Shown here: in pieces, positions 168-5,811 of the stretch
Layout of the letters: each line of letters begins with the position of its first letter
Numbering within the stretch: the first letter of the stretch is position 1
Assembly (NCBI GenBank): GCA_937916485.1
Contig: CALFSV010000019.1
Span: 1 to 5,811, forward strand
Direction of reading: 5' to 3'
From: an uncultured Paracoccaceae bacterium
GTDB lineage: Bacteria > Pseudomonadota > Alphaproteobacteria > Rhodobacterales > Rhodobacteraceae
Length of the DNA stretch: 5,811 nucleotides
Made by a program: the position numbers and the translations under genes
Notes under the pieces: model-generated
The model's database searches: none
Told to the model about the DNA's origin: nothing
Seen by the model: the letters and a program-made list of their open reading frames with translations, nothing else

Positions 168-1214
168 TTAGATATTTGTCCGCAGTAGTATTTCGATACG
201 GATGTTTTCTTGGGACTGAAGCGTTTTTCGCTGGTCGATAATTCCCTTCAACCGCCGGATCGCACTGCGTACGAGGTGTCCTGCGTCTTGGGCAATTACT
301 CCGTCCAAAGTATGTTGCTGCAGGGCAGCTTCGGTAAAAGGTGTGCGTTCATGGGCAATTTTGATGATGGATGGATCAAGCCCAAGCTCACTAACGATTG
401 ACAAAGGGATACGTGCTTCAGATGCCATAATGTAAATGCCAACTACATCCGGGTTAGTTTTCAAACTATTTGCAATAATTTGCCTCGCTCTATCTCCATT
501 GCCGTAGGTTTCAAGTGAAGGCAGTGCGCGCAGACGCAGGAAATTGTCATTGAGCTCTTGATCAAAACCGAGTCTGCGCTCAAGGGTATCTCGTGACTGC
601 ATGCTTTCAGAAATGACCAGAATGGACCCTTCGCGCCGCGCTGTAAATTGTCCTAGCAGCAAACCCGCTGTCGCCCCTGCAGCACGGTTGTCTATGCCGA
701 CCCAATTCGCGTCCATCATCGTTTGGTTAGACACGAACGGCAACGCTGCGACGCCGCGTTCTTGTAATCGCGTTATAGAGTCGCGCACTTGTGGTGTTTC
801 AGGTGACATAATCGCGATGCCATCGATATTGTCCTTGGACAGAGACGCAAGATAGGTCGAAATGCCGTGCGGATCCTTGTCATCGATTTCCTGTATCTCA
901 CACCAGATGTTATCTTCGGCAAAGACGGCCTGCGCTTCTGCGATGCGCTGTTTGATTTGATCGAGAAACTGATCTCCAGATCTCGGGAGCGCAAAGATAA
1001 AGCGGTAGTTTTGCGATTTCGCCAGATTCGCAGCCTGCAGATTGCGGACGAATCCCAGTTCATCAATCGCCTGATTGACGCGCTCAATGGTCTTTTTCTG
1101 CACCCCTTCGCGCCCGTTCAACACCCGATCTACGGTTGCACGGCTGACGCCGGCGACTTGGGCAAGGTCTTTGGTTGTGGGTCTCAACATCAGCTTTTTT
1201 TTTGCCATTTCCAA
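168..1214 (-). CDS. LacI-family transcriptional regulator, probable repressor of the adjacent sugar importer
   Basis: This cytoplasmic DNA-binding protein has 348 residues, normal for the LacI family. Residues 13-34 form the helix-turn-helix (TTKDLAQVAGVSRATVDRVL, then NG). Residues 36-58 complete the DNA-binding headpiece, and LQAANLAK (59-66) is the hinge helix, with Leu64 in the position of the leucine that inserts into the central CG step of LacI operators. The rest (about 70-348) is a periplasmic-binding-protein-like effector domain. The TVDRVLNGR variant, with Asp where LacI has Ser, marks a subgroup I associate with sugar-uptake operons; this is from memory. The start is uncertain. TTG at 1214 lies 5 nt after AGGGA, while ATG at 1208 lies 11 nt after it and gives a protein two residues shorter. 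A run of nine A follows the ATG (codons 4-7). The gene is divergent from the importer, and the palindromes between them are its likely operators. The effector is unknown. Confidence 0.95.
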   Translation of the reverse strand: MEMAKKKLMLRPTTKDLAQVAGVSRATVDRVLNGREGVQKKTIERVNQAIDELGFVRNLQAANLAKSQNYRFIFALPRSGDQFLDQIKQRIAEAQAVFAEDNIWCEIQEIDDKDPHGISTYLASLSKDNIDGIAIMSPETPQVRDSITRLQERGVAALPFVSNQTMMDANWVGIDNRAAGATAGLLLGQFTARREGSILVISESMQSRDTLERRLGFDQELNDNFLRLRALPSLETYGNGDRARQIIANSLKTNPDVVGIYIMASEARIPLSIVSELGLDPSIIKIAHERTPFTEAALQQHTLDGVIAQDAGHLVRSAIRRLKGIIDQRKTLQSQENIRIEILLRTNI

Positions 1215-1312: not shown

Positions 1313-1349
1313 TAATTATCTTGCTTTGATGCACGTGCATCATTAACAA
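1311..1349 (+). promoter_or_regulatory. Candidate importer promoter(s) overlapping the operators
   Basis: Two weak sigma70-like arrangements fit. In one, CATAAT (1311-1316, five of six) serves as a -10 with a poor -35, which puts the start site just before O2. In the other, TTGCTT (1321-1326) and TAACAA (1344-1349) flank a 17-bp spacer that contains O2 entirely. In either case repressor on O2 would block RNA polymerase. I cannot choose between them from sequence alone. Confidence 0.35.
1327..1342. promoter_or_regulatory. Operator-like palindrome O2 (perfect 16-bp dyad)
   Basis: TGATGCACGTGCATCA is a perfect dyad centred between 1334 and 1335 on CG, the architecture of LacI/GalR-family operators. 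It lies 70 bp upstream of the binding-protein start codon, inside the region expected to hold the importer promoter. Together with O1 and the divergent LacI gene it is the most likely site of repression. The protein-site pairing is inferred from position and family knowledge. Confidence 0.8.
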
Positions 1350-1412: not shown

Positions 1413-2747
1413 ATGAAAATGAATCTGATGATGACCGCCGCTGCAGGAGCGATGATGGTCAGTGGCGCAGCCACAACGGCAACTGCTGGTGGCCATGCAA
1501 CTGAATTGACCCTGTGCTGGGCAGCCTGGGATCCGGCAAACGCGCTGATTGAGCTTAGTAAGGATTTTGAGGCGCAGTCCGGCCACACAATGAACTTTGA
1601 GTTTGTGCCATGGACCAGCTTTGCAGACAGAATGCTCAATGAGCTTAACTCTGGTGGTCAGCTTTGCGATTTGATGATTGGCGACAGCCAGTGGATCGGT
1701 GGTGGTGCTGAAAACGGCCACTATGTAAAATTGAATGACTTTTTTGATGCTAACAGCATCGACATGGGCGATTTCATTCCTGCAACTGTGACAGGGTATG
1801 CAGAATGGCCAAAGAACACGCCAAACTACTATGCGTTGCCTGCGTTTGGTGATGTTGTCGGTTGGACTTATCGTAAAGATTGGTTTGAGCGTCCAGAGCT
1901 TCAAGCCGAATTCATGGAGAAATACGGCCGTGAGTTGGGTGTTCCAGCTTCGCTTGAAGAGCTGAAAGAGATTGGTCAGTTTTTCCAAGGGCGCGACATT
2001 GATGGCACCACAGTTTACGGTGCCGCAATCTACACAGAGCGTGGGTCTGAAGGTATAACCATGGGTGTGACGAACGCCCTCTACAACTATGGTTTTCAGT
2101 ATGAAAACCCAGATAAACCCTATGATTTGGAAGGGTTTGTCAATTCCGCTGGTGCTGCTAAAGGACTTGATCTGTATAAAGAACTTTATGATACTGCGAC
2201 GCCTCCGGGATCATCAAATTGGTATATGGGCGAAAACATCGATGCCTATCGGTCAGGTCAGGTTGCGATGCAGATGAACTTTGCCTTCATTTGGCCGGGC
2301 GTTGAAGCTGACGAAAATGTTGGTGGCGGCAAGTCCGGTTATTTTCCGAACCCTGCAGGTCCAGCAGGCCAGTTCGCACAGCTTGGCGGACAAGGTATTT
2401 CGGTTGTTTCATACTCTGATAAGCAGGACGCCGCATTGGAGTACATCCAGTGGTTCGCCCAGCCTCAGGTTCAGGCACAATGGTGGGAACTGGGTGGATA
2501 TTCAGCGCTGAAGTCGGTTGTTGAAGACCCCGGCTTCGCAACAAGCCAGCCTTACGCACAGACGTTCCTTGATAGCATGGCGATCGTTAAGGATTTCTGG
2601 GCCGAGCCAGCCTACGCTGACCTGCTGATTCCGATGCAACAGCGCATGCACAACTTTGTCATCGCTGGCGAAGGCACATCGCAAGAAGCGTTGGACGGTC
2701 TCGTTCGTGACTGGACAGAAGTCTTTGAGGACGAAGGCAAACTGTAA
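1413..2747 (+). CDS. Carbohydrate ABC transporter substrate-binding protein (CUT1, SBP_bac_1 type)
   Basis: This periplasmic receptor binds the substrate and delivers it to the permease pair encoded downstream. It has 444 residues, usual for the family. The N-terminus is a signal peptide (Lys2, then a hydrophobic Ala/Met-rich core) with a likely cleavage after Ala25 in the A-T-A motif. The mature part starts with the first strand (ELTLCWAAWDP, 31-41). It contains YALPAFGDVVGWTYRKDWFE (140-159), the counterpart of the family's central Y-x-LP…KD-x-F block, and GGYSALKSV (361-369), the counterpart of the GY-x-P-x-KS block near the C-terminus. Many tryptophans (36, 39, 67, 94, 132, 151, 157, 270) could stack on sugar rings. 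There are only two cysteines, Cys35 and Cys85, both in the mature protein and close to adjacent strands of the N-terminal lobe, so a disulfide is possible. It is the first gene of the operon, behind two LacI-type palindromes. The substrate is not identifiable; a sugar or polyol is expected. Confidence 0.96.
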   Translation: MKMNLMMTAAAGAMMVSGAATTATAGGHATELTLCWAAWDPANALIELSKDFEAQSGHTMNFEFVPWTSFADRMLNELNSGGQLCDLMIGDSQWIGGGAENGHYVKLNDFFDANSIDMGDFIPATVTGYAEWPKNTPNYYALPAFGDVVGWTYRKDWFERPELQAEFMEKYGRELGVPASLEELKEIGQFFQGRDIDGTTVYGAAIYTERGSEGITMGVTNALYNYGFQYENPDKPYDLEGFVNSAGAAKGLDLYKELYDTATPPGSSNWYMGENIDAYRSGQVAMQMNFAFIWPGVEADENVGGGKSGYFPNPAGPAGQFAQLGGQGISVVSYSDKQDAALEYIQWFAQPQVQAQWWELGGYSALKSVVEDPGFATSQPYAQTFLDSMAIVKDFWAEPAYADLLIPMQQRMHNFVIAGEGTSQEALDGLVRDWTEVFEDEGKL

Positions 2748-2887: not shown

Positions 2888-3835
2888 ATGACAGAGTCTC
2901 CCATCGATAAGGTCGCTGTAAAGACGCCAAATGGTGTAGCCCGTCACATAAAAGGCCTTTCGGACCGCACCATCGCGTGGATTTTTGTCGCTCCAACGAT
3001 TTTTTTGTTGCTAGCGGTGAACATCTTTCCGCTGATCTGGACAATACGGCTGAGCTTTACCAATTTTCGCGTGAACCGCCCTAACAACGACGTCGAATGG
3101 GTTGGCTTCCGCAACTATGAACGCATTCTGTCTGACCCCGATATCTGGGCAACAATGCAGGCGACTGCGCATTTCCTGATCTGGACCATCGTACTGCAAG
3201 TTCTGATTGGCTTTACGCTGGCCTATCTGATCAACAAAAAATTCAAAGGCAATGATATGTGGACCACGATCATCGTGCTTCCGATGATGTTGTCGCCCGC
3301 TGTAGTCGGAAATTTTTGGACCTTTCTCTACCAGCCCCAAATCGGCTTGTTCAACTATGCGGTTACCTTTTTTACTGGTGGTGATCCAGCTGACTTTTCA
3401 ATGATCGGCGACGTGCATTTGGCGCCTTGGGCAATTGTGATTGCGGATACATGGATGTGGACACCTTTTGTGATGCTGATATGCCTTGCGGGCCTGCGAT
3501 CTATTCCGGACAGCATCTATGAAGCTGCCGAGTGTGATCGTGCCTCTAAGTGGCGGCAATTCTGGACAATCACCATCCCGATGGTGCTCCCTTTCTTGAT
3601 GCTGGCGGTGTTGTTTCGTGGAATTGAGAACTTTAAAATGTTTGATTTGGTGGTCCAACTGACGGGCGGTGGACCTGGCAATACGACGACCCTGAGCTCG
3701 ATTGACCTAAAGCGAGAGGCATTCGAAAAGTGGCGTACAGGTTACTCGTCTGCATATGCTGTGATCTTGTTCGTTACAGTTTTCGGCCTTGCATCGATCT
3801 ATGTCAAAGCCCTCAATAAGGTAAAAGAAAGATGA
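2888..3835 (+). CDS. Carbohydrate ABC transporter permease, MalF/UgpA type
   Basis: This inner-membrane subunit forms half of the translocation channel with the next gene product. It has 315 residues. About six membrane segments are visible, near 28-50, 92-115, 125-148, 180-201, 233-250 and 285-306. The periplasmic segment between the first two contains WVGFRNYERIL (71-81), the counterpart of the W-x-G-x-x-NY block of MalF-like permeases. The cytoplasmic EAA loop, which docks into the ATPase, begins at Glu212 (EAAECDRASKWRQFW…IPMVLP). Its conserved glycine is replaced by Arg218, while the second permease keeps the glycine. LTGGGPGNTT (near 258-267) is a further family hallmark. The start at 2888 has only a weak GGA 8 nt upstream, so initiation may be modest compared with the binding protein. 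It follows the two stem-loops and overlaps the next gene by 4 bp. Confidence 0.96.
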   Translation: MTESPIDKVAVKTPNGVARHIKGLSDRTIAWIFVAPTIFLLLAVNIFPLIWTIRLSFTNFRVNRPNNDVEWVGFRNYERILSDPDIWATMQATAHFLIWTIVLQVLIGFTLAYLINKKFKGNDMWTTIIVLPMMLSPAVVGNFWTFLYQPQIGLFNYAVTFFTGGDPADFSMIGDVHLAPWAIVIADTWMWTPFVMLICLAGLRSIPDSIYEAAECDRASKWRQFWTITIPMVLPFLMLAVLFRGIENFKMFDLVVQLTGGGPGNTTTLSSIDLKREAFEKWRTGYSSAYAVILFVTVFGLASIYVKALNKVKER

Positions 3836-4770
3836 GCTTTTCAGTCACAGACCCCAGCCGCGCCATTAAATGGGTCGCAGGTGCTTTGGTTGTCGGGTAT
3901 GCCGTCATAACCCTAATCCCGCTCTTGTGGATTATAGCCACTGGCTTCAAGTCCCCATCAGATTCAATTTCTTACCCTCCAGTGGTGGCTTTTGAACCGA
4001 CATTGGAAGGCTATGTAAACCTGTTCACAGACCGCACCCGCGCAACCGAGAAGATGTTGGAAGAAGCGGGCCCACCGACGACATGGTACGAAGAAATCAC
4101 CCGCGAACGTGGCACAGTCATCTCTGGCCCGTCCCGCTATGGCGAGCGGTTCTTGAATTCGGTGATCATTGGGTTTGGATCAACTGCGCTCTGTATGATC
4201 CTTGGCACCATGGCGGCTTATGCGTTCAGTCGCTTTAAGGTGCCGCTCAAGGACGATCTGTTATTCTTTATTCTGTCTACTCGGATGATGCCGCCGATTG
4301 CTGTTGCAATTCCGATCTTTTTGATGTTCCGCAATCTGGGCCTGAACGACACGCATCTTGGTATGATCCTGCTCTATACGGCTGTGAACCTGTCACTATC
4401 GGTTTGGCTACTCAAAGGCTTCATCGACGAAATCCCAATAGAATACGAAGAAGCGGCTTTGATCGACGGCTACACCCGCTTTCAAGCGTTTTATAAAGTG
4501 GTGCTGCCACAGGCGGCGACTGGCATCGCATCGACGGCCATATTTTGTTTGATTTTTGCATGGAATGAATATGCGTTCGCGGTTCTGCTGACATCTGGCA
4601 CAGCCCAGACGGCACCTCCGTTCATACCCACCATCATCGGGACCAGCGGTAAGGATTGGCCTGCCGTTGCGGCGGGGGCCACGATTTTCTTGGTGCCAGT
4701 CATGGTCTTCACCATCATGTTGCGCAAACATCTGTTGCGCGGGATCACATTTGGAGCTGTACGCAAATGA
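3832..4770 (+). CDS. Carbohydrate ABC transporter permease, MalG type, with extended first periplasmic loop
   Basis: This is the second half of the channel, 312 residues, about six membrane segments (near 14-37, 107-132, 143-166, 176-195, 230-255, 276-298). The EAA loop is canonical: Glu207-Ala-Ala, Gly213, and Leu225-Pro226. WNEYAFAVLLT (244-254) and the C-terminal LLRGITFGAVRK (301-312) are typical of MalG-like proteins. The unusual part is residues 66-106: MalG-like permeases normally run almost directly from the T-L-E-x-Y-x-x-L-F block (57-65 here) to the second helix (FLNSVII, 107-113), but here about 40 mostly polar and charged residues intervene, with repeated Glu, Arg and Pro. They should lie in the periplasm, where the binding protein docks. 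The gene starts in an ATGA overlap with the first permease, so translation is probably coupled. Confidence 0.96.
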   Translation: MSFSVTDPSRAIKWVAGALVVGYAVITLIPLLWIIATGFKSPSDSISYPPVVAFEPTLEGYVNLFTDRTRATEKMLEEAGPPTTWYEEITRERGTVISGPSRYGERFLNSVIIGFGSTALCMILGTMAAYAFSRFKVPLKDDLLFFILSTRMMPPIAVAIPIFLMFRNLGLNDTHLGMILLYTAVNLSLSVWLLKGFIDEIPIEYEEAALIDGYTRFQAFYKVVLPQAATGIASTAIFCLIFAWNEYAFAVLLTSGTAQTAPPFIPTIIGTSGKDWPAVAAGATIFLVPVMVFTIMLRKHLLRGITFGAVRK

Positions 4771-4955
4771 TGAACTTTTTCGACGGTCTGGTGCGGTTCC
4801 GACGCGGTGCATGGGAAATGCTGGCATCCACCTTGATTGCGGTTGGTGTGGTCATGTTGATGCAGCCATTCGCGATCGGTCTCTATACTTATTCATTCAT
4901 TGTCACCCTTGTTGGCACGGTGATGTTCATCATCGTCAGCCATTTTCCGGAGTAA
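4767..4955 (+). CDS. Small two-helix membrane protein of the ABC operon, function unknown
   Basis: The gene encodes 62 residues and starts inside the stop codon of the MalG-type permease (ATGA). GGAG at 4753-4756 lies 10 nt before the first ATG, and a second in-frame ATG follows immediately at 4770. The N-terminus (NFFDGLVRFRRGAWE, 3-17) is amphipathic and carries three arginines. Two hydrophobic segments follow, about 18-34 and 37-57, joined by a turn at Gln33-Pro34, and the end is SHFPE. The positive-inside rule predicts both ends in the cytoplasm. It is not an antisense or frame shadow: it fills the space between permease and ATPase exactly, and its last codons contain the Shine-Dalgarno of the ATPase. 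I do not recognise a named family. By position it could be an accessory subunit or assembly factor of the transporter. It does not look like the larger DUF2160-type protein of glycerol importers. Confidence 0.78.
   Translation: MMNFFDGLVRFRRGAWEMLASTLIAVGVVMLMQPFAIGLYTYSFIVTLVGTVMFIIVSHFPE
4949..4952 (+). promoter_or_regulatory. Shine-Dalgarno of the ATPase inside the small membrane gene
   Basis: GGAG overlaps the final codon of the 62-residue gene and stands 6 nt before the ATPase ATG at 4959. It fixes the ATPase start and suggests that translation of the two genes is coupled. Confidence 0.75.
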
Positions 4956-4958
4956 CCC

Positions 4959-5811
4959 ATGGCACAGATCAGAATTGAAAATGTGCGCAAGGATTTCGGA
5001 TCGTTCAATGCGGTGAAATCTTCCACTTTCACGATTGAGGATGGAGAATTTTTCATGCTGCTTGGCCCCTCGGGCTGCGGTAAAACTACCACCTTGCGTA
5101 TGATGGCAGGGCTTGAGCTGCCAACGTCTGGCGAGATTTACATCGATGGCGAAGAGGTGGGCCAAAAACCTGCCAGCCAACGCGACATCGCGTTCGTGTT
5201 TCAGATGTTTGCTTTGTATCCGCACCTGAATGTGGGCAAAAACATCAGTTATCCATTGATTTCCCAAGGTATGCCCAAGGCTCAGGTGAAAAAGAAGGTT
5301 CAGGAAATTGCTGAAATCCTTGGTATAACAGATATTCTGAAAAAGCCGGTTGGCGGCTTGTCAGGTGGCGATCGCCAACGTGTTGCCTTGGGCCGTGCGA
5401 TTGTTCGTGATCCGAAGGCGTTCTTTATGGACGAACCGTTGGGGGCATTGGATGCAGAGTTCCGCGAGCATATGTCAGAGGAGCTGCGCGCCTTGCATGA
5501 CCGGATGGGGGCCACGACGGTTTACGTGACCCATGACCAGCTTGAGGCGATGCAGATGGGCGACAAGATTGTGGTGATGAACCACGGATCGGTCGAACAG
5601 TTCGGTGTGCCGCAAGATATCTATGACTGGCCTGCGACTAAGTTTGTGGCGGAGTTCATCGGTTCGCCCCCAATGAATTTCCTTAATTTCAATGGGATGG
5701 TCGGTGTGGGTGCTAATTCGGTCCGGCTGAGTAATGTGTCTTTGCCGGTCCCTGTAACGATTGATGGTGCAAACGGTGATTTGACCTTTGGGGTGCGCCC
5801 TGAACATGTGA
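4959..5811 (+). CDS. Sugar ABC transporter ATPase, MalK/UgpC type (3' end outside the window)
   Basis: This cytoplasmic ATPase powers the importer. The reading frame is open to the right edge; 284 residues are visible of an expected 350-370. In order: Walker A GPSGCGKTT (36-44), Q-loop Gln82 in FVFQMFALYPHLNV, signature LSGGDRQRVALGRA (134-147), Walker B FFMDEP with catalytic Glu159, D-loop LGALDAE (161-167), and switch His192 in VTHDQLEAM. After about residue 235 (FIGSPPMNFL) the C-terminal MalK-like regulatory/TOBE region begins, and FGVRPEHV at the edge is a usual block in it. The signature has Asp138 where most MalK-type proteins have Gln. All catalytic residues are intact, so an active enzyme is expected. 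The gene starts 3 nt after the stop of the small membrane gene, behind a good GGAG. Truncation is due to the window edge only. Confidence 0.97.
   Translation, partial: MAQIRIENVRKDFGSFNAVKSSTFTIEDGEFFMLLGPSGCGKTTTLRMMAGLELPTSGEIYIDGEEVGQKPASQRDIAFVFQMFALYPHLNVGKNISYPLISQGMPKAQVKKKVQEIAEILGITDILKKPVGGLSGGDRQRVALGRAIVRDPKAFFMDEPLGALDAEFREHMSEELRALHDRMGATTVYVTHDQLEAMQMGDKIVVMNHGSVEQFGVPQDIYDWPATKFVAEFIGSPPMNFLNFNGMVGVGANSVRLSNVSLPVPVTIDGANGDLTFGVRPEHV

Follow-up and report, generated by a model that had tools for sequence, protein, structure and literature searches.

A two-helix membrane protein encoded between permease and ATPase genes as a probable accessory subunit of a two-ATPase CUT1 importer

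CUT1 importers typically contain a single ATPase species as a homodimer, a feature that is not strictly defining. MalFGK2 and LpqY-SugABC, whose permeases are homologous to those encoded by the operon described here, to our knowledge use a single kind of ATPase and lack a small subunit. In the cited excerpt, the glycerol ABC importer GlpSTPQUV of Rhizobium leguminosarum, with Rmet_2229-2234 in Cupriavidus, is described with one binding protein, two permeases, two ATPases and one small membrane protein (PMC7912956). Accessory membrane proteins of ABC importers also include CbiN of the ECF cobalt importer CbiMNQO, which the part of the report cited describes as a two-helix protein that is essential for transport and weakly interacting (PMC7689651), and LucB, a conserved small transmembrane protein within a mycobacterial lipid ABC importer according to the section cited (PMC10710835). 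CbiN differs from the protein reported here in that it belongs to an ECF rather than a CUT1 system and that its function is tied to an extracytoplasmic loop, while the importer of LucB is of another kind and the likeness is one of description.

The window analyzed in this study is a 5,811-nt stretch of DNA from an uncultured Paracoccaceae bacterium, and its features are collected in Table 1. The encoded importer has an SBP_bac_1 binding protein, two BPD_transp_1 permeases and a MalK-type ATPase with a C-terminal OB-type regulatory domain (PF00005, PF17912), which places it in CUT1. ATP1 matched the UgpC-type model PRK11650 below that model's cut-off, and the nearest solved relative of PERM2 by sequence is SugB (E 2.3e-39). 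The single ATPase typical of CUT1 was, however, not found: a second ATPase gene (ATP2), which lies beyond the window end and is known from the loci of relatives, is present in 80 of 80 loci, and the system is filed as a two-ATPase variant. With two ATPase genes per operon, SMALL is one of six components and not the fifth subunit that the initial annotation had proposed. The first two helices of PERM2, taken from hydrophobic segments at residues 18-36 and 111-129, seem to be linked by a long periplasmic region (window positions 3940-4162).

Table 1. Location and assignment of the features in the window
Feature	Coordinates	Strand	Assignment
LACI	168..1214	-	divergent LacI-family regulator (PF00356, E 2.7e-14)
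GATGCACGTGCATC	1328..1341	.	perfect palindrome between LACI and SBP; candidate LacI-family operator
SBP	1413..2747	+	CUT1-type solute-binding protein (PF01547, E 8.4e-23)
PERM1	2888..3835	+	MalF-type permease (BPD_transp_1, PF00528, E 2.6e-22)
PERM2	3832..4770	+	MalG-type permease (BPD_transp_1, PF00528, E 5.2e-19)
SMALL	4767..4955	+	62-aa two-helix membrane protein, the object of this report
CCGGAG	4947..4952	+	final two codons of SMALL (Pro-Glu) and ribosome-binding site of ATP1
ATP1	4959..5811, runs off the window	+	first MalK/UgpC-type ATPase (PF00005 and PF17912; signature LSGGD)

The palindrome GATGCACGTGCATC has an imperfect copy at positions 1298-1311; in a shuffle test that allowed 3 mismatches, 16 of 200 shuffles also reached two matches. 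Among the 59 relatives with a divergent LacI gene, 19 (a raw count) had a copy with two or fewer mismatches, and the CACGTG core was absent altogether in 35.

SMALL is a real gene. A search of 5.8 billion proteins returned 4320 relatives at E ≤ 10, and the 120 listed were 61-66 aa long and 79-98% identical. Genome contigs were also scanned, which yielded 485 relatives; the best 80 of these were used for the counts of gene context and selection. In all 80 loci, the SMALL gene is flanked by those of PERM2 and an ATPase, with the second ATPase gene following, so that homologues do reside between a MalG-type permease and an ATPase, and the absence of conservation in protein or position, named earlier as a refuting outcome, did not occur. 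The other such outcome, equal synonymous and nonsynonymous rates, did not occur either: nonsynonymous changes were strongly depleted among the 75 of these 80 loci that encode exactly 62 aa (5 of other length were excluded), with a median dN/dS against the window of 0.109 (73 of 75 comparisons with finite dS). The value for codons 11-60 alone was 0.080 (69 of 75 finite), and the two other frames of the same DNA, taken as a control, gave 1.34 and 2.84. PERM2 and ATP1 had dN/dS values of 0.043 (59 of 73 comparisons finite) and 0.033 (21 of 75 finite), respectively, all these values being rough because the synonymous sites are near saturation. Thus, SMALL is under purifying selection, yet it is less constrained than either PERM2 or ATP1.

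SMALL matched no NCBIfam model, reached no Pfam cut-off (two weak matches, E 0.32 and 0.46) and gave a single weak match to PHROGs (E 0.077); the CbiN family models were not among its Pfam or NCBIfam matches at E ≤ 1, and a scan of the window against Rfam returned nothing at gathering scores. The annotation of a named plasmid includes the gene as a 'hypothetical protein' with the same overlap with the permease gene, and a translated search of a plasmid collection found 51 records. In two loci, the operon and the kinase gene described below reside on plasmids named as Ti plasmids; insertion sequence elements flank the operon of pTi6.2 (L203), and an IS66 transposase gene follows that of pTiL51_94 (L061). 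A partly narrow literature search, which included few subscription papers, found nothing on the function of SMALL.

SMALL is predicted to form a helical hairpin. Its structural model comprises helices at residues 2-32 and 37-59 (pLDDT 81.9, pTM 0.60), and the best hydrophobic windows are residues 19-37 and 39-57, which agrees with the two transmembrane helices expected; the Arg-rich N-terminus thought to precede them is also present, as R10, R12 and R13 come first. An alignment of 102 proteins shows seven residues without any variation (G27, Q33, P34, L48, G50, F54 and S58); Arg occupies position 13 in 98 of the proteins, and position 59 is occupied by His in 82 and by Lys in 20. The positive-inside rule is well established for the topology of membrane proteins, and the positive charges thus suggest that both ends of SMALL are in the cytoplasm. 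A Foldseek comparison with PDB folds gave 19 matches at E ≤ 10 and none at E ≤ 0.001, a profile of SMALL matched no PDB chain at E ≤ 1, and no natural fusion of PERM2 and SMALL was seen among the 120 listed of 8000 scored.

As annotated initially, the start of SMALL overlaps the stop of PERM2 through ATGA, and 3 nt separate its end from the ATG of ATP1. The four-base overlap with PERM2 was found in 111 of 114 distinct loci. These comprise all 103 distinct loci of the main set (114 loci before repeats were merged, with the in-frame start nearest the overlap taken), 7 of 10 further distinct loci, in which two others had a one-base overlap and one had neither, and a locus of a divergent branch (L172). 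It should be noted that the genes of relatives were partly obtained by greedy picking of open reading frames, that several are probably in the wrong frame and that these were included in some of the Pfam scans. The junction between SMALL and ATP1 is looser: the two genes are 270-530 nt apart in 6 of the 103 distinct loci and about 440 nt apart in one of the 10 further loci (L181). Given that the four-base overlap is near-constant and the ATP1 junction is loose, SMALL stays with PERM2. In one locus (L060), a glyoxalase/bleomycin-resistance-like gene (8196-8564) is found between SMALL and ATP1.

The own Shine-Dalgarno sequence ascribed to SMALL exists as a GGAG 10 nt upstream of the start, but it is rated as weak because this spacing is long. 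A GGAG is found 3-13 nt before the start in 72 of the 103 distinct loci, and no motif among those tried was present in the remaining 31. SMALL is more likely to be translated through termination-reinitiation coupling. The GGAG of ATP1 is 6 nt upstream of its ATG, within the final two codons of SMALL, and SMALL ends in CCG GAG at 76 of 106 short-gap loci (repeat copies included); as these codons double as the ATP1 ribosome-binding site, the Pro-Glu C-terminus is poor evidence for a function of the protein.

SMALL accompanies its importer closely. In a sample of 299 genomes across a phylum, the 22 genomes with PERM2 at ≥70% identity were also those in which SMALL was found (E ≤ 1.5e-17), and two of them (G001 and G005) were known as carriers beforehand. 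In a second sample of 240 genomes, SMALL was found in 11 of 11 genomes with PERM2 (E ≤ 1e-60), and a twelfth SMALL was located at a contig edge next to a cut PERM2; two genomes (G026 and G018) belong to both samples. Each of 10 known carrier genomes had one strong SMALL match, the next being at E 0.07. Matches at E 0.07-0.6 in the known carriers were dropped as noise, as were weak matches in three other genomes (G089, G463 and G508), beside which no importer gene was found.

A divergent branch provided five further PERM2 loci at 54-56% identity, and SMALL was present at all five. A profile search found four of these copies and the fifth was found only by reading the locus, which demonstrates that a profile search can miss divergent copies. 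The divergent proteins are homologous to SMALL by profile comparison (E 1.5e-9). In three loci (L133, L139 and L172), a divergent paralogous importer has its own SMALL and no kinase gene nearby, and TetR-type, amidase and creatinase/prolidase genes are in the neighborhood in L133 and L139. We opened 12 of the 63 listed loci with a PERM2 identity of at most 44%, and tblastn (E ≤ 0.01) detected SMALL at none of them; one of the 12 (L173) has more than one ATPase. SMALL accompanied the importer in all close relatives that were examined, and it is thus probably a functional component of it. Its co-occurrence with PERM2 supports its proposed role as an importer subunit; such a component is not unprecedented, given the small membrane protein reported in the cited excerpt on the glycerol importer (PMC7912956).

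The gene neighborhood points to dihydroxyacetone as the likely substrate. In 79 of the 80 close relatives, a dihydroxyacetone (glycerone) kinase gene follows SMALL at a distance of no more than 3 kb, and the contig of the 80th ends too soon to show it. In a more distant group, an ATP-type kinase was found in one of five inspected loci and Dak1-type matches in the other four, two of which also had a PEP-utilising enzyme. The substrate assignment is based on the fact that two types of phosphorylation, by the ATP-type dihydroxyacetone kinase (DAK) and by the Dak1 type, accompany one transporter lineage. The same pairing argues against the possibility, to which we give the smaller share of belief, that a different small polyol or sugar is imported and dihydroxyacetone only arises from it inside the cell, although one locus (L060) has genes for a Gfo/Idh-type oxidoreductase and an IolE-like protein and further enzyme genes are near some loci; such a substrate would be compatible with SMALL as a subunit. 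In the excerpt of a microarray study cited here, a cluster of Bradyrhizobium diazoefficiens whose members were induced together is listed in the order binding protein, permease, permease, bsr3569, ATPase, ATPase, DhaL, PTS proteins, a hypothetical protein and DhaK, and bsr3569, a hypothetical gene, was up 16.7-fold along with its neighbors (PMC5017801). From its position in the cluster, bsr3569 would be SMALL. In the divergent branch, a kinase gene was found in none of three stretches of 16-19 kb, and the dihydroxyacetone reading is therefore not extended to that branch.

Based on these results, we propose, with a probability of roughly 60%, that SMALL is an accessory membrane subunit dedicated to a CUT1 ABC importer that six genes encode and that probably takes up dihydroxyacetone; this interpretation from comparative genomics is plausible and well supported. 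The importer would consist of the binding protein, two permeases, SMALL and two different ATPases. Ribosomes finishing PERM2 would restart on SMALL at the ATGA, such that both proteins would be made together, and the SMALL hairpin may pack beside PERM2, which is suggested as the partner because of the gene order; the partial distance correlation of SMALL gives PERM2 no preference and tends slightly toward ATP1, at 0.248 with PERM2 and 0.405 with ATP1, and within the close group alone it was 0.118 and 0.215, respectively. The turn on the periplasmic side would contain the invariant Gln-Pro, and the two ends, one Arg-rich and the other with (His/Lys)-Phe, would be near the coupling region. As a permanent subunit, SMALL would mainly serve the stability or the assembly of a complex in which the permease pair is joined with two unlike ATPases.

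Its tight coupling to PERM2, with the four-base overlap described above, and its predicted hairpin fold would also suit an assembly factor that departs once it has helped the permeases to insert or to pair; the invariant residues, however, equally suit a lasting interface, and we regard a transient factor as unlikely. Several bacterial small proteins control transporters according to the cited portion of a report (PMC10710835), and SMALL could similarly regulate transport or turnover without being a structural part, in the manner of MgtR, MgtU and AcrZ. Such a role appears quite improbable, as the constant position and probable coupled translation imply a constant co-production that would fit a subunit better than a switch. 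That SMALL is mainly a translational bridge carrying the ATP1 ribosome-binding site in its last codons, its protein mattering little, is very improbable and largely refuted by the dN/dS over codons 11-60 alone and by the retention of SMALL at the 6 loci where ATP1 is at least 270 nt away.

Like the GlpU-type small protein, which we take to be DUF2160 (PF09928), SMALL directly follows the second permease in a two-ATPase operon. Among the PF09928 loci compared, which are presumably glycerol importers, a PF09928 match directly followed PERM2 in 8 of 8, and the two ATPase genes were upstream of the permease genes in both loci read at length, so that their gene order differs from that of the SMALL operon. 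SMALL was considered as a DUF2160/GlpU homologue and rejected, with no PF09928 match at E ≤ 1 and an hhalign probability of 0.4%; DUF2160 is predicted to have three helices in contrast to the two of SMALL, albeit in a model built from only 8 sequences (pLDDT 76.8).

The ATPases differ as well. LSGGD was found in ATP1 at 94 of 98 close-group loci counted and LSGGE in ATP2 at 79 of 79 (repeat copies included in both counts), and the Walker A, Q-loop and His-switch of both look intact, whereas in both of the two PF09928 loci compared one ATPase was without the usual switch-His motif and the other without the signature motif. In L012 and other loci, the Gln of LSGGQ is replaced by an acidic residue in both ATPases (LSGGD and LSGGE). 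As judged from their genes, the two importers share a design with two ATPases and a small membrane protein, and the small proteins are without detectable relation. A possible, though on balance doubtful, extension is that CUT1-like importers of uncharged three-carbon compounds (dihydroxyacetone and glycerol) share an architecture of their own, in which two unlike ATPases are combined with an additional, obligate membrane subunit. That subunit would have been recruited at least twice from unrelated proteins, which would point to a common mechanical need, for instance to seal the permease pair or to couple it asymmetrically.

Should SMALL prove to be a true subunit, the customary account of what makes up a CUT1 importer would be incomplete for a lineage that is widespread and mostly alphaproteobacterial, a family of thousands of proteins would gain a role, and reconstitution of the importer without SMALL would be expected to fail. 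The finding also raises the testable question of why an extra membrane protein is present in importers that have two unlike ATPases and whose substrates are probably three-carbon compounds.
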